In this document: positions 4,368 to 15,638 of the stretch, piece after piece | Layout of the letters: each line of letters starts with the position of its first letter | Position numbering within the stretch: the stretch's first letter is position 1 | From: Bacteroidaceae bacterium | GTDB taxonomy: Bacteria; Bacteroidota; Bacteroidia; Bacteroidales; Bacteroidaceae | Direction: 5' to 3' | NCBI GenBank assembly: GCA_017961965.1 | Contig: JAGCWG010000099.1 | Span: 1 to 15,848, forward strand | Length of the DNA: 15,848 bases | Notes under the pieces: model-generated | The model's input: the letters and a program-made list of their open reading frames with translations, nothing else | Told to the model about the DNA's origin: nothing | Databases searched by the model: none | Made by a program: the position numbers and the translations under genes

Positions 4368-6328
4368 TCTTCTTCTGCTAATTCAGTATCTTCCTCTGGC
4401 ACGTCTTCCTCTATCACAAGATTATTGATAATAAAGTTCTGACGTTCCATTGTATTCTTTCCCATATAGTATTCGAGGAGTTCCTTCACCTGGTCAGTCT
4501 TGCGGAGAGTAACCTCTTCAAGACGCATGTCAGGACCAATGAAGTTCTTGAACTCGTCTGGCGAAATCTCACCAAGACCTTTGAATCGTGTGATTTCAGG
4601 GTCTGGAGATAACATCTTTATGGCGTTCTTACGCTCCTCGTCTGTATAACAATACACGGTAACGAAGTCACCAGTATCTTTCTTTCCCTTAGTGAGTTCT
4701 TCAAGATACTCTTTCTTCACACGCTTACGTCTCTGACGCACTCGGAAGAGAGGTGTCTGGAGAATGTGTACGTGTCCCTTACGGATAAGCTCTGGGAAGA
4801 ACTGCAAGAAGAATGTAATCATCAACAGACGAATGTGCATACCATCCACATCGGCATCTGTAGCCACGATGACCTTATTGTATCGGAGTCCTTCGATACC
4901 GTCTTCTATGTTAAGGGCAGCCTGAAGGAGATTGAACTCCTCGTTTTCATACACCACCTTCTTTGTCAATCCAAAGCAGTTGAGAGGCTTACCCTTGAGA
5001 GAGAATACTGCCTGAGTGTTCACATCACGGCTCTTTGTGATACTACCACTCGCAGAGTCACCCTCTGTGATGAAGATACAACTGTCTTCCTTCAGGTCAC
5101 CCTTAGCATCGTTGAGATGCACACGACAGTCGCGAAGCTTACGGTTATGGAGATTAGCCTTCTTTGCCCTCTCCCTTGCAAGCTTTGTTACACCAGCTAT
5201 AGCCTTACGGTCACGCTCGTTGTCCTGTATCTTCTGCTGGATAATCTCAGCTACGTCAAGGTTCTTGTGAAGATAGTTATCCACCTCCTCCTTGATAAAG
5301 TCGCCAACGAACTTATTGACGCTTATTCCGCCACCAGGCTCCATAGTGAGCGAACCGAGCTTAATCTTTGTCTGCGACTCAAACTGTGGCTCTTGCACAT
5401 TGATGGCAATGGCAGCTACGATACCGCTACGCACATCACTCAAATCATAGTTTTTATTAAAGAAATCCTTGATTGTACGTGCAATATGCTCCTTGAACGC
5501 ACTCTGGTGAGTACCACCCTGTATGGTGTGCTGACCATTGACAAATGAGTGATACTCCTCACCATATTGCTGATTGGTATGTGTAAAGGCAATCTCTATA
5601 TCCTCACCTTTGAGATGGATGATGTCATAGAGAGGTTGAGTATCCATAGTGTCAACGAGCAAATCCTTCAGACCATTGCGTGAAGTGATGCGTCGCTGGT
5701 TATAGTAAATCTCAAGACCTGTATTGAGGTAAGTGTAATTGCGGAGCATAGTCTCCACAAATTCACCTTGGAACTTATAGTTGAGGAAGAGAGTATTGTC
5801 AGGAATGAAATGAATGTAAGTACCTGTTTCTTCATCCGATTTCTCAATCTTATTCGAAATAAGTTCACCCTTCTCAAAGATGGCAGTACGTACCATTCCG
5901 TCACGGTAGCTTCTTACCTCAAAGAGCGAAGACAATGCGTTGACAGCCTTGGTACCCACACCGTTAAGACCTATTGACTTTTGGAAAGCCTTGGAGTCAT
6001 ACTTACCTCCAGTATTGAGGATAGATACAGCCTCAACCATCTTACCTTGCGGAATTCCACGACCATAGTCCCTGACAGTCACCTCAAGGTCGTCCGTAAT
6101 ATCAACCTCGATGCGCTTGCCTGCCTTCATCTTGAACTCGTCGATGGAGTTATCAATAATTTCCTTTAGAAGTACATAGATTCCATCCTCAGCATGGGAA
6201 CCGTCACCAAGGCGTCCGATATACATACCAGGACGAAGACGAATGTGCTGAACACCCGTGAGGGTGATAATGTTGTCATCTTTGTACTCAGGTTGTTTAG
6301 GTTCTTGAATATTTATTTCTTCACTCAT
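4364..6328 (-). CDS. parE: DNA topoisomerase IV subunit B (type IIA, GyrB/ParE family)
   Basis: This is the ATPase subunit of a type IIA topoisomerase; with ParC it decatenates daughter chromosomes. The GHKL ATPase has [10 protein letters not shown] (Glu56, Asn60), DYGRGIP (Asp87), NTGGKYD and [13 protein letters not shown] (120-132). The transducer carries the QTK loop (Lys321). The TOPRIM domain has EGDSASGS (Glu422) and DADVDG (Asp491, 493, 495), followed by RFKGLGE (581-587). The length of 654 residues suits ParE, with no GyrB-type insertion in the TOPRIM region; the choice of ParE over a second GyrB rests on length and resemblance, since parC is not in the window. The acidic tail [15 protein letters not shown] is probably disordered. 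It is the first gene of the minus-strand operon, with a candidate promoter -7 at 6392-6399. Confidence 0.9.
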
Positions 6329-6391
6329 ATTTTGTTAAAATATACATGCTAATATTAGGCACACAGAGCACCTATATACATTAAATTTGCG

Positions 6392-6399
6392 CAAATATA
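6392..6399 (-). promoter_or_regulatory. Candidate Bacteroidetes -7 element for parE operon
   Basis: The minus strand reads TATATTTG, an exact match to TAnnTTTG, about 63 bases upstream of the parE ATG. I find no TTTG at the usual 19-21 bp spacing (the nearest similar sequence is ATTG at about 25), so the -33 half is weak. It abuts a plus-strand TAAATTTG (6382-6389) within the palindrome ATTTGCGCAAAT (6385-6396). Confidence 0.5.
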
Positions 6400-6418
6400 C
6401 AAAATTTTCGGTTTTTGT

Positions 6419-6450
6419 TTTGTTCAATTATTTAATATTAACTAATTTTG
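6419..6450 (+). promoter_or_regulatory. Bacteroidetes-type promoter of the OmpA-family gene
   Basis: The -33 TTTG (6419-6422) and -7 TAATTTTG (6443-6450) are separated by exactly 20 bp, matching the Bacteroidetes consensus TTTG / 19-21 / TAnnTTTG. Transcription would start near 6456-6460, giving a leader of about 30 bases. This promoter also argues against any upstream extension of the coding region. Confidence 0.75.
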
Positions 6451-6488
6451 AGGCCAAAATATTAACGAACCTTTATTTTTTTACAATT

Positions 6489-7721
6489 ATGCTTAATCTT
6501 AAAACGACAATCGCAGCATCAATTGTTGCATTGTGTGGTACGAATGCCATGGCACAGACAGCAGCTGAGGTACAGGAACAGGAACTCGGCTACAAACCAC
6601 AGCCATACACATTCATTCAGGTACAAGGTGGTGTAGGAACAGTCTTCACAGACGTAAAGGCTACAGAAACCATATTACCAACATTCGGACTCAGCGTAGG
6701 TCGTATGTTCACACCTTCAGTAGGTGCTCGTCTCCACTTCAACGGTTACCGCAGCCGTGGAGCATTCGACCACAAAGATGTCATCTACAAGTACGGACAC
6801 AACTACATCACTACAGATGCAGACCTCATGATTAACGTCATGAACATCTTCCAGGACAAGAACTTCTCAAGGTTCAATCTCTATCTCGTAGGTGGTGTAG
6901 GTCTCTCATACACTTGGAACAACAGCGAGTTCGAATCACTCAGCGGAGTTGCAAAGGCAGCACGATACGACGTTTCAAACGCATGGGGCGACAACCAGAG
7001 CCCACGTCACAGTCTCATCAGCCACAACCTCCGTGCAGGACTTCTTGCAGACTACAACGTAAGCAAGCACTTCAGCATAGGACTTGAGGTTGATATGAAC
7101 TCACTAGACGACCGTTTCAACTCAAAGTATAACAACTCTGACGACTGGATGATGACAGCAATGCTTACTGCCACATACAAGTTCGGTTTCAAGAAGGCAT
7201 CAAAGCCTGCTCCAAAGCCAGTACCTGTTGTAGAACCTATTCCTGAGCCAGAGCCAGAACCAGAGTACGCTACACGTATCGATACTATCTGGTACGACAG
7301 TATCTACTATGAGGAGAGCACAAGAGACCGTCAGATCAAGAAGGAAATCTTCTTCGGACTCCGCGAAAGTGGTGTTGAGACAAGCACCGCACTGATTAAC
7401 GCAGTCGCAGCATTCCTCAAGAACGTAAAGAATGCAGAAATCACTATCACATCATATGCTGATAAGGGCACAGGTACTCCAGAAAAGAACATGGGTTACA
7501 GTAAGACACGTGCCGAGAAGACCAAGAAGGCACTTATCGCAGCAGGTGTAGATCCTAAGATTATCAAGAAGGTAGAATGGAAGGGAGATACCGAACAACC
7601 ATACGCCGAGAACGACAAGAACCGCCTCTCAGTCATCACAGGTCACGGTGTCTATACAGACAAGGATGAGAAGGTAGTCAAGAAGTTCAAGACTAAGGAA
7701 GTAACTTACAGAGTTAAGTAA
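6489..7721 (+). CDS. OmpA-family outer-membrane protein
   Basis: A 410-residue envelope protein probably linking the outer membrane to peptidoglycan. Residues 1-22 form a signal peptide ending NAMA-Q. Residues about 37-235 look like an 8-stranded outer-membrane beta-barrel, with alternating aromatic strands such as FIQVQGGVGTVF, GLSVGRMF and MLTATYKFGF. A Pro/Glu/Lys-rich linker (about 239-260, PKPVPVVEPIPEPEPEPEY) leads to an OmpA-like domain (about 285-390) with TSYADKGTGTPEKN, SKTRAEKTKKAL and NDKNRLSVI, the region of the peptidoglycan-binding Asp and Arg in this family. The frame stays open upstream to a TTG at 6387, but that stretch lies across the promoter and the ATG at 6489 starts a proper signal peptide, so I use it. 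The start context ACAATTATG, without Shine-Dalgarno, is shared with the gene at 8430. The gene is flanked by its own promoter and a strong terminator. The final ~20 residues are Lys-rich and outside the domain. Confidence 0.92.
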   Translation: MLNLKTTIAASIVALCGTNAMAQTAAEVQEQELGYKPQPYTFIQVQGGVGTVFTDVKATETILPTFGLSVGRMFTPSVGARLHFNGYRSRGAFDHKDVIYKYGHNYITTDADLMINVMNIFQDKNFSRFNLYLVGGVGLSYTWNNSEFESLSGVAKAARYDVSNAWGDNQSPRHSLISHNLRAGLLADYNVSKHFSIGLEVDMNSLDDRFNSKYNNSDDWMMTAMLTATYKFGFKKASKPAPKPVPVVEPIPEPEPEPEYATRIDTIWYDSIYYEESTRDRQIKKEIFFGLRESGVETSTALINAVAAFLKNVKNAEITITSYADKGTGTPEKNMGYSKTRAEKTKKALIAAGVDPKIIKKVEWKGDTEQPYAENDKNRLSVITGHGVYTDKDEKVVKKFKTKEVTYRVK

Positions 7722-7724
7722 ATC

Positions 7725-7746
7725 CATAATTCACAATTAAGAATAG
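7725..7746 (+). repeat. AT-rich intergenic repeat, copy 3 (after the OmpA-family gene)
   Basis: Starts 4 bases after the stop. CATAATTCACAATT (7725-7738) is identical to the minus strand at 1741-1728 beside ybeY, and AATTAAGAAT (7735-7744) recurs at 1460 and 15633. Confidence 0.6.
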
Positions 7747-7753
7747 ATAAAGC

Positions 7754-7792
7754 AAAAAGGAGGAAAGAGATTGTTCCCTTTCCTCCTTTTTT
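7754..7792 (+). terminator. Rho-independent terminator of the OmpA-family gene
   Basis: A perfect 14-bp stem (AAAAAGGAGGAAAG at 7754-7767 with CTTTCCTCCTTTTT at 7778-7791), a 10-base loop and a T-tract built into the 3' arm (7787-7792). The A-rich 5' side means it may also act in the reverse direction, although no reverse gene is present. Confidence 0.88.
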
Positions 7793-7848
7793 GTGTTTAA
7801 GCCATGACAAAACTTTTTTACCTACCGAGAGAGAAAAAAAACGAAACA

Positions 7849-7903
7849 AGTACGGTCAAAGTAGAGACTAAGTACTGACTAAGTAGAGACTAAGTAGTAA
7901 CTA
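7849..7903. repeat. Five tandem 11-bp direct repeats
   Basis: Five head-to-tail units with exact 11-base period: AGTACGGTCAA, AGTAGAGACTA, AGTACTGACTA, AGTAGAGACTA, AGTAGTAACTA (consensus AGTAnnGACTA). Units 2 and 4 are identical and lie 22 bases apart. An 11-base period places each unit on the same DNA face, as expected for cooperative protein binding. It lies about 260 bases before the candidate -33 element, which is far for a direct activator site. A degenerate microsatellite-like repeat is the alternative. Confidence 0.8.
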
Positions 7904-8163
7904 TGAACTTTAGGACAAAACACGCAGAACTTTCGACACTTTTAAGAAAAAGACAACCCCAGCTATCCATGCAGGGAAAAAACAAGATTGCTCCACATTA
8001 CCCAGAACATCTTACTCACACCATGAACGGCAAGCAAACGCCAAAAAAGGCTGAAAAAGAACAGAGACAGAACATATCTTCAACAAATACAACCGAAAAT
8101 TCCGAAAAAAGTCCTAATTTTCTTTAAATTAATTGTCATAAACACACAAAAGTCAAAAATTAT

Positions 8164-8194
8164 TTTGTTAAATCAATTTTTTTCTTGTAATTTG
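8164..8194 (+). promoter_or_regulatory. Candidate promoter of the first large surface protein
   Basis: TTTG (8164-8167) lies 20 bp before TAATTTG (8188-8194). The -7 is one base shorter than the consensus TAnnTTTG, but the spacing is ideal. Use of this promoter would give a leader of about 230 bases. No closer consensus match is seen upstream of 8430. Confidence 0.45.
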
Positions 8195-8429
8195 CAGACT
8201 AATCAACAAATACTATACTAACTTAGTTACACTAATTGATTTAAAAGCAAATACAAGGGAATAATCATCTTAATAATTTATTTGCCATTTTGACATATAG
8301 CGATACACATAACGTGTTGAATATATGCTCAACCATAATAATGGACTATCTTGGTATTATTACAAATACATGATAATGTGAACCAAATAAATAAAAACTA
8401 TTAACTAATCAAGTTTAATTACCACAATT

Positions 8430-11400
8430 ATGAAGAAAACATTACTTCTGATTGGTTCTGTGGTAGTGAGCCTTAGCGCCTCTGCTCAGAACTTCACAGG
8501 TAAGTGGGAAAGACCTGCAGCTCCAGAGTTTTCCGACTTCGAACCTGAGACAAAGTATTACATGTGGAATGTGGGAGCCAACGGTTTCTACATCAACCAT
8601 CAGAACGGAACAAGTGCTCCTTACTATGGTACAGCCGCATCAGTAAATGACACAATCGGTGCATTGGTTTATTTCAGCAAGACAAACCCTGATGCAAATA
8701 TTGTAGAGTCATGGGAACCAGGCACTGATAACGCTTACCTTCTCGTGAGCTACGTTTCAAAGTTCAAGGAAGATAGATGTACATTTGCTGATGGAAATGT
8801 ATGGACAGACAACAACACTAACGGCTACCGTTACTTCGACGTTGCTGTAGATGGCAAGACATTTACCATCACTCCTAATCCAGCAATGATTCAGTTCTCA
8901 GTTGCTGATGCTATTCCTGAGACATACGAATACAACCCATTAGGTGTTGAATCTTCAAATACAGAAAAGATTGTGTATATCTCTAAAACAGAAGGCGAAT
9001 GGTACACTAAGTGGGCATTTGTATCTGAGGAGGCATACAATAACTATATTGACAATGCTAAGCAGCAGATTAAGCTTTGTGCAGCTGCTGAAGCACTCCG
9101 CAAGACAATCGAAAAAGCTGTTAAAGAAAACCCAGGCATCGACCTCGATGCACAGGTTGCTGTTTATAACAATCCAAACAGCACTTTCGAGGAGCTTAAT
9201 GCTGCTAAGGATGTTGTAAAGGATGTAATCGTTGCATTCACAGCTTCAAAGGCAACAATTGACAATCCTATCAACTACACAAGCCTCATCCAGAACTCAA
9301 CATTCGATGTTATCGGTAACTTCGACGGTTGGTCTGCAGGATTCGGTGCAGGTGGTACTACAGGACCAAGCGCTGAGTGCTATGGCAAGTCATTCGACGT
9401 ACATCAGACAATAAAGGGTCTTCCTTCTGGTGTATATATTGCAAAGGTTAATGGTTACTTCCGTAAGGAGAACGCACAGAAGGACTATGATGACTTTATT
9501 GCAGGCATACAGTCAGATTGCGAATTCTACGCTACATCTGGTGACTTCAAGTCAAAAGTTAACGTAAAGCACGTTGCAGAAGGTGCAGTAACTGAAGGAT
9601 TCGGCGTAACCAGCGAGTCAACATTCGTAGACCAAAACGGTTCTACTATGACTATTCCTAACACAATGCTTGCTGCTGACAGCTACTTCCACAACGAGGA
9701 CGGTGAAATCAACCCACGCTATGAGAACGTAGTATATGTTCCAGTATCAAACGGCGAACTTACAATCGGTGTTGCTAATTCAGTAGGTGGTGGTTCTGAC
9801 TGGTCTATCTTCGATGACTTCCAGCTCTACTACATCGGTGATGGCGACGACTGCTACGAGCTCCTCAAGGAGAATCTCGAAAAGGCTCTCGAATACAGCC
9901 TCCCAGAGAATGCAGCATACAGCACACGTGACTATGCAGACTACACTAACGCTAAGGATGCATTCAAGTCAGCAACTGGTAAGGCTGCCCTCACAGAATA
10001 CACTAACGCAGCTGCAGCTCTCGAGACAGTTAAGGCTGGCGTTGAAAACTACAAGTTGTATCAGGTTGCTATTACTGATGCTAACAATTGGTACACAGAT
10101 GCTACAGACCGTAATGTAAACGAAGAAATTCCAGCAGTAGAAAAACTTAAGGCTTACCTCACATATGAGGAGGATGAAGAGTTTGGTTTCCCTAACGGAA
10201 CATACATACAGATTCTTAATCAGGATAATGAAGGTTCACTCACAAATGAGCAGATTATTGAAGAAACAGCCTTTGTAAACGCTCTCGTTAAGCAGGCTAT
10301 GAACGATGGTATCGTTGAAGGTGCAGACCTCACAGCGATGATCACAAACCCTGGTTTCGAAGAGGCTGGTGGTAAGGGTTGGACAAACGCTTACGGTAAC
10401 CTGACAAACTGGCACGGAGGTAATGCAAACAACTACTGTGCTGAGGCATGGAACAGCAACTTCGACGTTTATCAGGAAGTAGAAGGTCTTCCAAACGGAC
10501 TCTATGAGGTATCAGTTCAGGCATTCTATCGCACAGCTTCAAATGCTGATGCTTACACAGCATACCAGAACGACCCAGAGATGACAGGTGACGCTAAGGT
10601 TCTCTCTTATGTATATCTGAACGAGTTTGCAACTCCAGTTCGTAATGTAATGGAAATCCAGTTCGACGAGAACCTCTCAAACAATTGTTGGTCAACTACT
10701 GATGGTAAATACACTCTCAATGGTATGGCTTCTGCATCAGAGGCATTCAGCTTGGAGGATGAGAGCCAGAACTTCACTATGAAGGTTTATGGTATCATCA
10801 AGGACGGCAAGATGCGTCTTGGTATCCGTGGTGAAGGTACAATATTCGACCGCTGGACACTTTGGGACAACTTCAAGCTCCGCTATATGGGTAAAAACAA
10901 GGTTGCCGTTGCAAGCGTATTGAGTACTAAGGCTAATGCATTGTTAGCTATGCAGAATGAGGTTGACGAAAACAAGAACCCAATTATGAACGAGTACACA
11001 AAGAAATTCATCGATGATCAGTATGCATCTGCAATGAAGTGGTTAATTGGAATTACTGAATTCAACGATGAGACTCTCGCAATGCTTAATGAGGATGACC
11101 TTTGGAATGCACTTACTAACATCGCTGCAGCACAGGAAGAAGTTGATGCTGATGTTAAGGCATACAAAGAATACAGTACAGCATTTAGTACACTTGAGGG
11201 TGTTGATTCAGAACTGTTCACACAAGAAATGCAGAAAGAGTTCTATGATCTTCAGGACCTCGCTGCTAATTCTCAGAACATGACAAGACAGCAGCTTGAG
11301 GAGCTTTCCGCAAGAATCAACAAGTCTATGAACTGGTTTACTTATCCAGAAAGATTGAATAATGCTGTTGAAGCAGAACTCCCAGAGGGTTATGACACAG

Positions 11401-11999
11401 CAACAGGTGATGTTGACTTCACAAGCATCATCATTAACCCAGACTTCGAGGAAGATCTCAATGGATGGAACAACGAGAATATGCAGGCACAGACCAACAC
11501 AGCATTCGGTAAGAATGGTAACACTTACTGCGAGAAGTGGCACGCTGACCTCAGCCTCAGAATCTCTCAGTCATTCAAGAACCTTCCAAACGGTTACTAC
11601 ACATTGACTGCTAACTGCTACAACTCTACAGCTGACGGTTGCCTCTTCATCTCTGCTGAAGATGAGAACTGCAACGTAACAGAGACTACTACATTTATTG
11701 AAGATACTACTACACCAGAAACAGTAAATACTAACTCTGTAACATTTGAATACAAGGGTGGTATCCTCACATTCGGTGCAAGGGCTACACTCACAAGCTC
11801 AACTTGGTTCTGCGTAGATAACTTCATCCTCACTTACTCTAAGGAGGTTCCAGTAGCAGTTGAAACTGTTGAGGCAGCTACTGCTTCTGCTACAGAAGGC
11901 ATCTTCACAATCTCTGGCGCACGTGTTGACAAGCTCGCTAAGGGCATCAACATCGTCAAGATGACTGACGGAAGTGTAAGAAAGGTATTCGTAAAGTAA
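8430..11999 (+). CDS. Large secreted modular protein A, three beta-sandwich modules and sorting-like tail
   Basis: An 1189-residue exported protein whose family name I do not know. Signal peptide 1-19 (ends ASA-Q). The mature protein begins with WERPAAP, then a beta-rich lectin-like region (about 40-200) with YYMWNVGANGFYI. Three galactose-binding-like beta-sandwich modules follow, about 279-470, 631-820 and 994-1137. Each opens like DLTAMITNPGFE...GW, has a central FDVYQEVEGLPNGLYEVSV pattern, and the first two close with FDDFQLYYIG or LWDNFKLRYMG. Helical spacers of 150-170 residues (about 200-275, 472-625, 825-985), partly FIVAR-like, separate them. Residues about 1156-1189 (GIFTISGARV...INIVKMTDGSVRKVFVK) resemble the last strands of a type IX secretion sorting domain. 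No catalytic motif is visible; binding of glycans or host or plant material is an inference from fold. Codon use favours ATC/ATT over ATA, unlike gene B, suggesting higher expression. The start context is ACAATTATG. A terminator follows. Confidence 0.85.
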   Translation: MKKTLLLIGSVVVSLSASAQNFTGKWERPAAPEFSDFEPETKYYMWNVGANGFYINHQNGTSAPYYGTAASVNDTIGALVYFSKTNPDANIVESWEPGTDNAYLLVSYVSKFKEDRCTFADGNVWTDNNTNGYRYFDVAVDGKTFTITPNPAMIQFSVADAIPETYEYNPLGVESSNTEKIVYISKTEGEWYTKWAFVSEEAYNNYIDNAKQQIKLCAAAEALRKTIEKAVKENPGIDLDAQVAVYNNPNSTFEELNAAKDVVKDVIVAFTASKATIDNPINYTSLIQNSTFDVIGNFDGWSAGFGAGGTTGPSAECYGKSFDVHQTIKGLPSGVYIAKVNGYFRKENAQKDYDDFIAGIQSDCEFYATSGDFKSKVNVKHVAEGAVTEGFGVTSESTFVDQNGSTMTIPNTMLAADSYFHNEDGEINPRYENVVYVPVSNGELTIGVANSVGGGSDWSIFDDFQLYYIGDGDDCYELLKENLEKALEYSLPENAAYSTRDYADYTNAKDAFKSATGKAALTEYTNAAAALETVKAGVENYKLYQVAITDANNWYTDATDRNVNEEIPAVEKLKAYLTYEEDEEFGFPNGTYIQILNQDNEGSLTNEQIIEETAFVNALVKQAMNDGIVEGADLTAMITNPGFEEAGGKGWTNAYGNLTNWHGGNANNYCAEAWNSNFDVYQEVEGLPNGLYEVSVQAFYRTASNADAYTAYQNDPEMTGDAKVLSYVYLNEFATPVRNVMEIQFDENLSNNCWSTTDGKYTLNGMASASEAFSLEDESQNFTMKVYGIIKDGKMRLGIRGEGTIFDRWTLWDNFKLRYMGKNKVAVASVLSTKANALLAMQNEVDENKNPIMNEYTKKFIDDQYASAMKWLIGITEFNDETLAMLNEDDLWNALTNIAAAQEEVDADVKAYKEYSTAFSTLEGVDSELFTQEMQKEFYDLQDLAANSQNMTRQQLEELSARINKSMNWFTYPERLNNAVEAELPEGYDTATGDVDFTSIIINPDFEEDLNGWNNENMQAQTNTAFGKNGNTYCEKWHADLSLRISQSFKNLPNGYYTLTANCYNSTADGCLFISAEDENCNVTETTTFIEDTTTPETVNTNSVTFEYKGGILTFGARATLTSSTWFCVDNFILTYSKEVPVAVETVEAATASATEGIFTISGARVDKLAKGINIVKMTDGSVRKVFVK

Positions 12000-12032
12000 T
12001 TGCACAAAGCAATAACTAACATTTAGATAATT

Positions 12033-12070
12033 GTGGCGAACATCAAATAGTGGTGTTCGCCACTTTTTTT
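12033..12070 (+). terminator. Rho-independent terminator of large protein A
   Basis: GTGGCGAACA (12033-12042) pairs perfectly with TGTTCGCCAC (12054-12063), extendable by a T-G and a C-G pair, followed by seven T (12064-12070). It separates the two large genes into distinct transcripts. Confidence 0.9.
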
Positions 12071-12102
12071 GTTATCAATCCAAGTTTTTCATTAATAATG
12101 CT

Positions 12103-12110
12103 TATCTTTG
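12103..12110 (+). promoter_or_regulatory. Candidate Bacteroidetes -7 element for large protein B
   Basis: TATCTTTG matches TAnnTTTG exactly, just after the terminator of gene A. I see no TTTG at 19-21 bp upstream, so only half of the promoter is supported. The leader would be about 185 bases and would include the inverted repeat at 12166-12248. Confidence 0.5.
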
Positions 12111-12165
12111 CCAAGTTAAAGCCAACAGAGGCATCAAGACAAATAAAAAGAACATTTTTTGAAAA

Positions 12166-12248
12166 CACAGAGAACGCAGAGAACACGGAGGATTCTCCTG
12201 CAAAAGCTATAATATATTAAACACTCTGGTTACTCTGTACTCTCCGTG
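12166..12248. repeat. Imperfect inverted repeat built from period-9 units
   Basis: The left arm (12166-12190) contains CAGAGAACG CAGAGAACA CGGAG; the right arm (12224-12248) contains CTCTGGTTA CTCTGTACT CTCCGTG. Reverse-complemented, the right arm matches the left at 17 of 25 positions by my count, and both keep a 9-base period with CxGAG cores. The 33-base spacer is AT-rich. It resembles the short CTCTGTG-type intergenic repeats seen in many bacterial genomes, and would be transcribed in the leader of gene B if 12103 is its promoter. Confidence 0.65.
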
Positions 12249-12299
12249 CTTTAAGAGAGACAAAACATTCTAATTTTCTTACATGTATATTGATAATTT

Positions 12300-15200
12300 A
12301 TGAACAGAATAACCATCTTTGCCATTACACTATTTGCAAGTATAAACACATTTGCACAGTGGACCAAACCTGCTCCACCAGCAATAAGCAATATAAGCAT
12401 TAACACCAATTGCTACCTCTTCAACAAGGAAGCAAATGCTTTCCTCATTGGTGGTAACGAATGGGGAACGCGTGCAAGCATATCTGAAAAACGCGGTAGC
12501 AAGTTCTACATTAACCTGTACTTTAAGGATAACAACTGGGATGGTAACTCATACTATCTCATCAATGACGTTGAGAGCGGAAAACTCAACGGCAGCAAGG
12601 GTTATATGTTCATAGATAACCTTGATAGGATATACGTCGATGGCATACCTGGAGAGAACAAGAACATGGGCTTCCAGTTTGTGACAAACGAAGACGGTAC
12701 ATTTAGGATTTCGCTATCGAACAATAACGAGACATTCAATCCAGAGAACTATCCTAACACATACCTCGGAGTAATACCAGAAATAGAGGATGGCAGGGTA
12801 TATTTCTGCAACCTTGACTCCTTAGTCGGTAAGTACGACCCAGCAAAGTTCCAATCATCATGGTACGTCGTTACGGCTAAGGACTACAAGTCATACACGG
12901 ATAAGATAGCACAATACGATGCAGCCATAGAACTTGGCAAGACACTTGAGGAGGCAAAAAAGTATGATGGAATAGACGAGGAACTGATGGAGGATGCAAC
13001 CTTTGCCTATGAACATACTTTTACGAGTATTGACGAGCTAAAAGAGATGAGCGACAGCATCAAGAAGGTCATCAAGAAAATTAAAATCACATTGGCAAAT
13101 ACCGACAATCCTGTGGAGATGCTAAGCATGTACGGTGAAGTGGAGCAGACATTCAGTACCAAGGCTACAACTGGATGGGTTATGGACACCAATGCTGAGA
13201 ACAAGGGTGCATCAAACGGTAATGCCTCAAAGGATATCGAAAAGACAGGCTACCACCTTGAGAACTGGAACAACGAGGCACTTGGCAACGGTAGCGTATG
13301 GGCAAAAATTACAGACATTCCTAACGGAGTGTATAGACTATCAATGCTCGCATTTACTAATGACACACTCACGACGCTTGCCTTTGCAGGCAACGACACT
13401 ACACGCGTAAGGACGGAGCTTATCGACATAGACAGACCAACAGAGGTGATGGCTATAGTGGATAACAACGAAATCACCTTCGGACTTAGACTTGTGAACT
13501 CAAATGCCAACTGGATAGGACTGGACAATGTGAACCTCTACTATCTCGGTACATCATACGAAGCATACAAGATGGTAGCTGACAGCTACATCAACAGAAG
13601 CAAGGAATATGTCAGCCTAACAGAGAATGGCAGCTTAACAAACTACAGCAAGGAGCATCTGAAAGAATACAAATCTGTAATAAAGTCTTTGAGCGAGGCA
13701 AAGACTACTGAGGATGTAATCAAGTATCTAAATGACTTCAAGACTGTCATAGCGAATCTGGAGAACAGTATCATAGCATACGAGACATACGTGGTACTCT
13801 ACACCAACGTTGGTATGTGGCTCACGGAACAGATTTACGAGAATGAATCAGTAAAATTCCTCGACCGCTACATCAACGGTACGGATGATTTATTAGGCTT
13901 CAACGGCAATGGTAATGCCACATTCATACTCAATAGCCTCGAACTCACATGGGACGAAATGACTGACGAGATAAAGTATCTGCAAAAACTCTATGACGAT
14001 GCCTACGCCTCAATACTGAAGGAAGGCGACGACTGTACCAAGCTTATCAAGAACCCTAAGTTCATTGAAGAGGGTGGTTGGTTATCAGCAGTAGGACCTA
14101 AGTGGCCTGTAGGCAACACAAGCATCTGTCCTGTGGTAGAGGCAAACAACATGATATGCAACGTCTATCAGGAACTCACAAACCTACAGAACGGCCTTTA
14201 CGAGATAAACGTTCAGGCTGTGTTCCGCCCAGGAAGAGAATACAACGAGGAGAACGCGGCAAAGGCTGATGCAGTCATCTACATCAACTCATTCGAGTCA
14301 AAGATACCTTGTGCCGACATCAACAGCGCTGAGGAGGCTTCAGAGGCATTTGCCGAAGGAAAATACAATGTCAAGGCTTACGGTATTGTATCAGACGGTA
14401 CTCTGCACATAGGCATAAGAAACAACAGCAGACTCGTGGATGGTTGCGTACTCTGGGCTGGCAACGTAAGTCTCAGATACTTCGATAAGACATCCAACGC
14501 CATATCTGATGCAATCACATTCATACTCCCATACGCTAAGGATGTCTATGCAGAGTCTATATGCGGAATAGCAGAGAAAGAGGCACTCAACTATGCCATA
14601 ACCTTTGCACATCAAGAGGACGACCCATACGAAGAATTTGTCAATCTCAAGCAAAGTGTGGATGATGTTATTGCTGGCAACAAGCTATACAAGAAACTTG
14701 AGAAGGCAGTGGACATACTTGACAAGGCAATAGATAACAACGAGACCGACGAAGACATCAAGAAGACACTTCGTGAAATAAACTTCAAGGTTTCAAACCT
14801 TCTTAGCAAGCATGAACTGACAAATTCGAAGGCAACAGAGGCTCTTGCAAAGATATACGAGTCAATAGTCATTGCCAAGAGATACGGATATGCAGAGGGC
14901 ACAGAAGAGAATCCTGTGGATTATACAGACCTTATCCTCAACAATAACTTTGACCCAGAGGATGGTAGTCTCGATGAGTGTAACATCAACGGATGGAACA
15001 CAACAGCAATGAACGGATATAAGGAGAACACTGTTTCGTACAACCGTGCAGAGTATGAACTCAACCAGACTATATACGGACTGAAGAAAGGTACGTATAA
15101 GCTTACCGTTCATGGCTACTATCGTGCTGGTTATGCCAACGAGGACGAGATGAACCTGAAGAAGGACTCTGTAGATTCACACCTCGCAACGTTGTATGTT

Positions 15201-15638
15201 GAGACACCTACAAAGAAATACTCCAAGCCATTGCTTTTGCTCACAGAGGGAGCAAGCGATACTCAGGAGTGTGAAACTGGATGTTTCACCACATCTGAAG
15301 GTAAGTATGTACCTACAAGTACATCAAGTTCGGTGATATACTTCAACAAGGGATATTATCTTAACGAGATAACATTTGAGCTTTCTGAACTTGGTGCAGT
15401 AAGGATTGGTATCTCAAAGAAAGGTATCATTGCCAACGACTACAGCGTCATCGGACAGTGGAAACTATGGAACTTAGGATTAGTCCACGAAGACGTAGGC
15501 ATAAACGATGCTGAAACAATTTCTGATAATACCATATCAGGTGTTTATACCATTGACGGTATGCGCCTTTCTGAACCAAGGAATGGTATCAACATCGTCA
15601 GGATGAGTGACGGAACGGTTAAGAAAATTCAGAATTAA
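12300..15638 (+). CDS. Large secreted modular protein B, paralogue of protein A
   Basis: A 1112-residue exported protein with the same plan as A; family name unknown to me. Signal peptide 1-19 (ends TFA-Q), then WTKPAPPAIS and an N-terminal lectin-like region (about 33-195) with NCYLFNKEANAFLIGGNEWG. Three beta-sandwich modules lie at about 270-416 (ends LDNVNLYYLG), 578-728 (DCTKLIKNPKF...VYQELTNLQNGLYEINVQA...LRYF) and 871-1061 (DYTDLILNNNF...LNQTIYGLKKGTYKLTVHG). Helical spacers separate them (196-265, 418-576, 730-865). The tail (about 1078-1112, GVYTIDGMRL...INIVRMSDGTVKKIQN) matches that of A but ends in KIQN instead of KVFVK, because an AT-rich repeat supplies the last codons and stop. 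ATA isoleucine codons are much commoner than in A, pointing to lower expression or separate history. No catalytic motif is visible. A surface binding or adhesion role is inferred. Confidence 0.84.
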   Translation: MNRITIFAITLFASINTFAQWTKPAPPAISNISINTNCYLFNKEANAFLIGGNEWGTRASISEKRGSKFYINLYFKDNNWDGNSYYLINDVESGKLNGSKGYMFIDNLDRIYVDGIPGENKNMGFQFVTNEDGTFRISLSNNNETFNPENYPNTYLGVIPEIEDGRVYFCNLDSLVGKYDPAKFQSSWYVVTAKDYKSYTDKIAQYDAAIELGKTLEEAKKYDGIDEELMEDATFAYEHTFTSIDELKEMSDSIKKVIKKIKITLANTDNPVEMLSMYGEVEQTFSTKATTGWVMDTNAENKGASNGNASKDIEKTGYHLENWNNEALGNGSVWAKITDIPNGVYRLSMLAFTNDTLTTLAFAGNDTTRVRTELIDIDRPTEVMAIVDNNEITFGLRLVNSNANWIGLDNVNLYYLGTSYEAYKMVADSYINRSKEYVSLTENGSLTNYSKEHLKEYKSVIKSLSEAKTTEDVIKYLNDFKTVIANLENSIIAYETYVVLYTNVGMWLTEQIYENESVKFLDRYINGTDDLLGFNGNGNATFILNSLELTWDEMTDEIKYLQKLYDDAYASILKEGDDCTKLIKNPKFIEEGGWLSAVGPKWPVGNTSICPVVEANNMICNVYQELTNLQNGLYEINVQAVFRPGREYNEENAAKADAVIYINSFESKIPCADINSAEEASEAFAEGKYNVKAYGIVSDGTLHIGIRNNSRLVDGCVLWAGNVSLRYFDKTSNAISDAITFILPYAKDVYAESICGIAEKEALNYAITFAHQEDDPYEEFVNLKQSVDDVIAGNKLYKKLEKAVDILDKAIDNNETDEDIKKTLREINFKVSNLLSKHELTNSKATEALAKIYESIVIAKRYGYAEGTEENPVDYTDLILNNNFDPEDGSLDECNINGWNTTAMNGYKENTVSYNRAEYELNQTIYGLKKGTYKLTVHGYYRAGYANEDEMNLKKDSVDSHLATLYVETPTKKYSKPLLLLTEGASDTQECETGCFTTSEGKYVPTSTSSSVIYFNKGYYLNEITFELSELGAVRIGISKKGIIANDYSVIGQWKLWNLGLVHEDVGINDAETISDNTISGVYTIDGMRLSEPRNGINIVRMSDGTVKKIQN

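Follow-up and report, generated by a model that had tools for sequence, protein, structure and literature searches.

A tandem pair of paralogous, enzyme-free multimodular proteins with a candidate type IX secretion tail in Bacteroidaceae

What do two very large adjacent genes without a recognizable enzyme do for a Bacteroidaceae bacterium? We addressed this question for contig JAGCWG010000099.1 (assembly GCA_017961965.1), whose 15,848 nucleotides, read on the forward strand, are referred to here as the window. It contains two open reading frames (ORFs), GB1 and GB2, which a first-pass annotation made from the sequence alone had delimited at the same coordinates (Table 1). We consider it probable (roughly 0.65) that both are PorU-anchored surface proteins that display glycan-binding modules.

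Two paralogues with one domain plan

GB1 and GB2 are true paralogues. BLASTP aligned them over 825 positions with 24% identity (E = 5e-37), and they share a plan consisting of a signal peptide, a beta-trefoil, three beta-sandwiches resembling carbohydrate-binding modules (CBMs; M1 to M3) on helical spacers (H0 to H2), and a tail of 46–47 residues. AlphaFold2 models of the whole proteins reached pLDDT values of 88 (GB1) and 90 (GB2), with uncertain mutual placement of the domains (pTM 0.49 and 0.59, respectively). Each model contains an N-terminal beta-rich domain, three beta-sandwiches with helical stretches between them, and a C-terminal three-stranded piece behind a low-confidence linker, and a fold search matched the trefoil and the beta-sandwiches of both models to solved structures. 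Family alignments of GB1 (A1, 81 rows) and GB2 (A2, 90 rows) were then sliced by domain for profile comparison. Domains at the same position matched each other (trefoil, 99.9%; H0, 99.3%; H1, 99.9%; H2, 98.7%; M2, 100%, E = 1.4e-48), while four control pairs of unlike domains gave 0.2–3.4%. All 15 module pairs were related (98.4% or more). M1 of GB1 is nearer to M3 of GB2 (E = 1.9e-39) than to M1 of GB2 (E = 4.1e-26), and it is therefore likely, judging from these profiles, that modules were exchanged or copied.

No catalytic domain was found in either protein with the models or with fold and profile searches. Pfam reported no domain above its cut-off (the nearest was DUF5013 in GB2, 23.1 bits versus 28.5) and NCBIfam none in either protein; single-sequence searches of the PDB returned nothing over threshold, and a search of genome contigs with a single protein as query gave no match. 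With 17.1 bits against a cut-off of 21.2, a Glyco_hydro_57 match at residues 400–523 of GB2 straddles a module end and a helical spacer, and was attributed to chance. The first-pass annotation had described tandem paralogues with one plan, a lectin-like N-terminal region, three galactose-binding-like sandwiches alternating with helical spacers, a short sorting-like tail, and no catalytic domain. The sequence and profile matches, models and searches bear out this description, with "lectin-like" applying to the trefoil fold, and the tail can be specified further. Two further suggestions of that annotation, an extended rod and different ligands for the two paralogues, remain conjectural, the former in view of the low pTM values.

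The C-terminal tail, PorU and porZ

The tail of both proteins is most likely a short C-terminal domain (CTD) of the type IX secretion system (T9SS), to judge from its sequence features. At the N-terminus, both proteins carry a putative signal peptide of typical appearance with an A|Q junction (judged by eye), and the absence of a lipobox Cys in the first 24 residues indicates that they are not lipoproteins. Counted from the putative cleavage sites, the candidate CTDs measure 47 (GB1) and 46 residues (GB2), with strands modelled at 1155–1160, 1172–1178 and 1183–1188 in GB1, and at 1079–1083, 1097–1102 and 1107–1111 in GB2. Both tails contain motifs B, D, and E, with motif D reading GIN (GxN), and a predicted three-stranded sheet behind a flexible linker. 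In the sections of the Prevotella intermedia study consulted here (PMC11969387), short CTDs are 40–55 residues long and form a three-stranded sheet; a Gly is conserved in motifs B and D, and one subgroup has GxN. The GB1 and GB2 tails resemble them in length, in the three predicted strands, in these Gly residues, in the GxN variant of motif D, and in a conserved basic residue near the end. The cargo of that species also has an N-terminal signal, of which GB1 and GB2 have a putative counterpart, judged by eye. The cleavage consensus of that species, PT/GI, compares with DV/GI in GB2, which fits the cleavage motif with Ile at +2. Cleavage and C-terminal glycosylation were measured for the P. intermedia cargo, whereas for GB1 and GB2 cleavage and glycan attachment are predicted from sequence. 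In the same sections, the cargo comprises leucine-rich repeat, protease, Fn3/choice-of-anchor J, and pectin-lyase-fold proteins, and the trefoil–CBM–helix plan goes unmentioned (PMC11969387).

A short tail of the type IY..SG.R....GINIVK..DG..KK..VK ends 189 of the 240 listed homologues; the remaining 51, some with other tails and some cut short, were excluded from the tail model. Among 142 distinct tails caught by this pattern, 127 have a residue–Ile step in the allowed range, which is a loose test given the 51 homologues outside the pattern. A tail model (A3) built from 35 short tails was run on 199 genomes sampled from the same family (E ≤ 1e-5), and PorU was searched in the same genomes with NF033707 (E ≤ 1e-20). 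Tail-model matches, whose position at ORF ends was not confirmed, occurred in 125 genomes and PorU in 137. Within this sample the tail matches were confined to PorU genomes: 125 genomes had both, 12 had PorU only, 62 had neither, and none had the tail without PorU. This discrimination is a property of the family-level test, since at the order level PorU accompanied the tail in 17 of 17 genomes but was also present in 182 of 197 overall. A replacement of the canonical CTD by the short tail in the genus is ruled out by TIGR04183 matches in 45 of 45 genus genomes, and both kinds of tail were matched in all 16 genus genomes searched for both. The two nearest genomes are G001 and G021. In G001, two CotH/LTD proteins (on C105 and C85) also carry the CBM-like module; they end in a canonical CTD according to TIGR04183 matches (PF18962: 25.7 bits versus a cut-off of 27 for the C105 protein, none listed for the C85 protein). 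The same short tail is present in a solved hexosaminidase (8bbl_A, E = 2.9e-6). Taken over family and genus genomes, these matches suggest that T9SS cargo may be undercounted where canonical CTD models alone are used. The counts of 125 and 16 genomes also bear on a printed statement, in the sections consulted, according to which no other species of the phylum has been reported to have long as well as short CTDs besides P. intermedia (PMC11969387).

In the nearest genomes, the pair is also linked to porZ. One contig of G021 carries ompA, gene 1, gene 2, prmC, and porZ in this order, and its porZ passes the curated cut-off (628.9 bits versus 260). In G001 the two genes sit on separate contigs, each at an end, and these ends share 40 exact bases; downstream of gene 2 come a gene with a PrmC N-terminal domain and then porZ. 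Across the genus, counting matches at E ≤ 1e-50 that are mostly distant relatives rather than orthologues, 14 of 25 genomes had porZ no more than 5 kb from their best GB1 match, and 3 of 17 from their best GB2 match; for a best match of either kind the count was 16 of 33. Examples of GB1 matches away from porZ are G001 (porZ on another contig), G012 (9.5 kb), G005 (149 kb), and G006, where porZ had no match. Regarding the T9SS itself, PorU and PorZ were found in G001, and PorZ and SprA_N in G021. As a separate observation, the listed PorU matches of genus genomes reach only about 990–997 of the 1095 model positions, and the C-terminal ends of the four that were inspected look like a diverged CTD.

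Export and anchoring of GB1 and GB2 are, we infer, well supported. The Sec signal peptide would take the proteins to the periplasm, and the short CTD would carry them through the T9SS outer-membrane translocon. PorU would then cleave within the disordered linker that precedes the tail, ahead of G1067 in GB2 and of about A1143 in GB1, and join the new C-terminus to a surface polysaccharide that PorZ, encoded two genes on in the nearest genomes, may help to deliver. The roles of PorU, PorV, and PorZ are known from other species. The trefoil and the three CBM-like sandwiches would thus be displayed at the surface on their helical spacers. Since there is no catalytic domain, multivalent glycan binding is their likeliest work, which may attach the cell to plant particles, to mucin, or to glycans of other kinds; alternatively, they may hold glycans near surface enzymes.

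Glycan binding and its alternatives

Glycan binding is suggested by fold, by profile, and by a paralogue in a Sus-like amylase locus. Fold and profile searches placed the modules closest to CBM61 and CBM16; those of GB1 and GB2 have the beta-sandwich fold and a profile relation to CBM61, with 16–18% identity to TmCBM61. Solved CBM61 modules (TmCBM61, 2xom; galactanase 9fli) belong to galactanases, whereas GB1 and GB2 carry three modules without an enzyme. In other proteins, the module is combined with CotH, glycosidase-core, or alginate-lyase domains. The trefoils share the fold of ricin-type beta-trefoils (HA33 entries, GH43 BT0265) at about 10–13% identity, and any lectin activity of theirs is putative. 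The T9SS cellulases of Ca. Paraporphyromonas polyenzymogenes come close in kind: in the sections of PMC5831590 consulted they are likewise multimodular, carbohydrate-acting proteins of a rumen Bacteroidota, exported through a T9SS CTD instead of relying on polysaccharide utilization loci (PULs), but, in contrast to GB1 and GB2, they carry catalytic domains.

Whole-chain Foldseek searches returned full-length Cry protoxins as the best matches of both models (E = 2.6e-18 and 1e-16). The alignment covered at its widest Cry residues 461–1189, and the N-terminal pore-forming part lay outside the aligned ranges shown. The C-terminal half of Cry protoxins alternates helical and CBM-like domains and serves crystal packing. 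This likeness, together with trefoils devoid of the QxW motif, would suit a structural coat in which T9SS-anchored modules pack into a surface layer or fibre, with the CBM fold as a building block and no glycan bound. However, the alternation is all that fits: no sequence relation to the protoxins was found and the global fit is poor (rmsd 22–38 Å, TM 0.10–0.15), which also led us to reject the likeness as a sign of a toxin. The profile relation to the enzyme-borne CBM61, the co-occurrence of the module with carbohydrate-active domains, and a paralogue of the same plan in a Sus-like locus further argue against a coat, which we consider unlikely.

That paralogue, on contig C119 of G001 (L123, C119:26001-40000, positions 4958–8572), has 1204 residues, the same plan, and a short-CTD-type tail. 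A SusD match is 5.5 kb away; SusE/F-type genes and an alpha-amylase/CBM26 gene precede the paralogue, GH3 and GH8 genes follow it, and it is possibly a starch-side member of the family. Its location ties the plan to glycan use, and raises the odds both of displayed glycan-binding modules and of a non-catalytic capture protein, similar to surface glycan-binding proteins, that would partner a SusCD transporter whose genes lie at another locus or, in some family members, nearby. The CBM-like modules and the SusD genes found elsewhere in G001 and G021 (18 and 14 matches) are in line with such a capture role. Nevertheless, the three contigs carrying the pair (C93 and C51 of G001, C159 of G021) gave no match to SusD (PF07980), the neighbours there are housekeeping genes and porZ, and the proteins combine a T9SS-type tail with the lack of a lipoprotein Cys. 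Moreover, of 16 module-bearing proteins in G001 regions chosen for matches, only the C119 paralogue is within 20 kb of a SusD gene; for two encoded on C146 the distance is 24 and 28 kb, and the contigs of the other 13 have none. A capture protein thus seems rather improbable. The earlier statement that the pair does not look like part of a standard PUL holds for the locus itself, without SusD beside it, but does not extend to the C119 paralogue. No SusC was seen among the other window ORFs scanned, in which no search was aimed at SusC.

At E ≤ 1e-3, gene 1 had at least 688 homologues among 7993 candidates scored, and gene 2 at least 141 among 7442. Three modules were present in 116 of the best 120 GB1 homologues, the other four being proteins of 653–1001 residues, while the best 120 GB2 homologues had two (3 proteins), three (20), four (66), five (29), or six modules (2). 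Named homologue records covered 44 loci: 22 from ruminant hosts, 13 with RUG/RUI names, which we take to be rumen series of metagenome-assembled genomes (MAGs), and 9 others. The genus Prevotella, named by the first-pass annotation for a genome survey, is near but not exact: among named records, Bacteroidaceae MAGs from the rumen of sheep and water buffalo come closest.

Comparison of alleles showed differences between the two genes. At gene 1 residues ~120–237, the window is identical to P0001 (100%) and P0002 to P0003 (100%), with 73% identity across the two groups, and the grouping changes at ~298–412 and 533–830; gene 2 has one close cluster (99%). Gene 1 alleles thus look mosaic at domain-sized borders, which points to module-wise recombination in a protein-level comparison of few clusters where MAG chimaeras are possible. 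The same pattern would be expected of a variable surface antigen or shield, selected mainly for escape from host antibody or phage with glycan binding secondary. In addition to the caveats of this comparison, such a role is countered by nine GB1 relatives with 38–77% overall identity, in which M2 is 63–85% and H2 19–63% identical; that M2 is better kept than the whole protein suggests a kept function. We regard the antigen explanation as unlikely.

Several observations weigh against PorU-anchored glycan binders. In the most distant of these relatives, M3 of GB1 is no better kept than H1, and it exceeds the spacers in nearer relatives alone. QxW (QxF) repeats, the motif of ricin-type lectins, are absent from both trefoils; CBM-like folds also occur in non-binding domains, and the sugar-binding sites of GB1 and GB2 are putative. 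The cleavage site of GB1 reads V/AV, with Val instead of Ile at +2, and the canonical CTD models TIGR04183 and PF18962 were not listed for either tail at E ≤ 1, with filters that drop most matches above 0.1. In the survey, besides the unconfirmed position of the tail matches, 12 of 137 PorU genomes lacked one, and 11 of 25 GB1 and 14 of 17 GB2 cases had no porZ in a 5-kb range. Finally, the T9SS of the window's own organism is deduced from the nearest genomes, and the translocon marker SprA_N, present in 43 of 45 genus genomes, was not found in G001 (86% complete).

A broader proposal is more tentative. GB1 and GB2 may belong to an unnamed, T9SS-anchored, enzyme-free multi-CBM family, with a trefoil upstream of three to six modules, that forms a main glycan-gripping coat of rumen Bacteroidaceae, often beside porZ and once in a Sus-like amylase locus. 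Its first member might recombine module-wise between strains, changing binding or antigenic type, and its short CTD, reported for one species, could be widespread in the bacterial family. Apart from PULs, there is little to explain how rumen Bacteroidaceae attach to fibre or mucus; if the proposal is true, such proteins would provide these bacteria with adhesins ready for use. Neither the secretion route nor the short signal nor CBM-type folds are new in themselves. The unnamed family, the breadth of the short signal, the porZ linkage, and the mosaic gene 1 alleles do appear new: when the literature was searched for the architecture and the signal, no title or opening of an abstract pointed to a paper on this family, as far as the terms used can tell.

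Features and surroundings of the locus

Table 1. Positions in the window of GB1, GB2, and their observed or predicted features.
Feature	Position	Strand	Basis
GB1, T9SS-type multimodular surface protein (predicted), 1189 residues	8430..11999	+	ORF, homologues, model
GB1 putative signal peptide, residues 1-19, ends ASA/QN	8430..8486	+	by eye from sequence
GB1 beta-trefoil, 29-205	8514..9044	+	model, fold search
GB1 helical spacer H0, 206-277	9045..9260	+	model; borders by hand
GB1 CBM-like module M1, 278-472	9261..9845	+	model, profile comparison
GB1 helical spacer H1, 473-627	9846..10310	+	model; borders by hand
GB1 CBM-like module M2, 630-822; most conserved part in distant relatives compared	10317..10895	+	model, alignments
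GB1 helical spacer H2, 823-980; least conserved part in distant relatives compared	10896..11369	+	model, alignments
GB1 CBM-like module M3, 992-1139; fold nearest CBM61 and CBM16	11403..11846	+	fold and profile searches
GB1 putative short CTD, 1143-1189; putative PorU cleavage before A1143	11856..11996	+	model, paper comparison, profiles
Strong terminator-like hairpin with T-run, between GB1 and GB2	12033..12063	+	sequence; similar hairpin at same place in G001 and G021
GB2, paralogue with same plan, 1112 residues	12300..15638	+	ORF, BLASTP, homologues, model
GB2 putative signal peptide, residues 1-19, ends TFA/QW	12300..12356	+	by eye from sequence
GB2 beta-trefoil, 25-201	12372..12902	+	model, fold search
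GB2 helical spacer H0, 202-268	12903..13103	+	model; borders by hand
GB2 CBM-like module M1, 269-418	13104..13553	+	model, fold and profile searches
GB2 helical spacer H1, 419-572	13554..14015	+	model; borders by hand
GB2 CBM-like module M2, 574-729	14019..14486	+	model, fold search
GB2 helical spacer H2, 730-862	14487..14885	+	model; borders by hand
GB2 CBM-like module M3, 870-1062	14907..15485	+	model, profile comparison
GB2 putative short CTD, 1067-1112; putative PorU cleavage DV/GI before G1067	15498..15635	+	model, paper comparison, profiles

Directly upstream of the pair, the window encodes an OmpA-family outer membrane protein (6387–7721), whose counterparts in G021 and G001 occupy the same position at 92% identity. 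Beyond porZ, the nearest genomes carry an acyltransferase-type ORF and a C10 peptidase (PF01640; 188 bits at L094:4451-6172 in G021, 182 bits at L096:7805-9523 in G001). In four other genomes (L099, L100, L101, and L102), GB2 relatives lie near an ORF resembling mnmG/gidA (by eye), suggesting a second conserved home of the GB2 branch.

A single transcription unit looks unlikely given the 13-pair hairpin with a T-run between the genes; terminator-like sites in the region numbered 10 versus 5.2 expected. A Bacteroidota promoter pattern had one match in the window, which is chance level. The intergenic stretch 12140–12265 contains an imperfect inverted repeat with a predicted RNA fold of -28 kcal/mol, and the same gap in G001 has, at the contig break, a palindromic CACGGAG-type element that is possibly a small repeat element.

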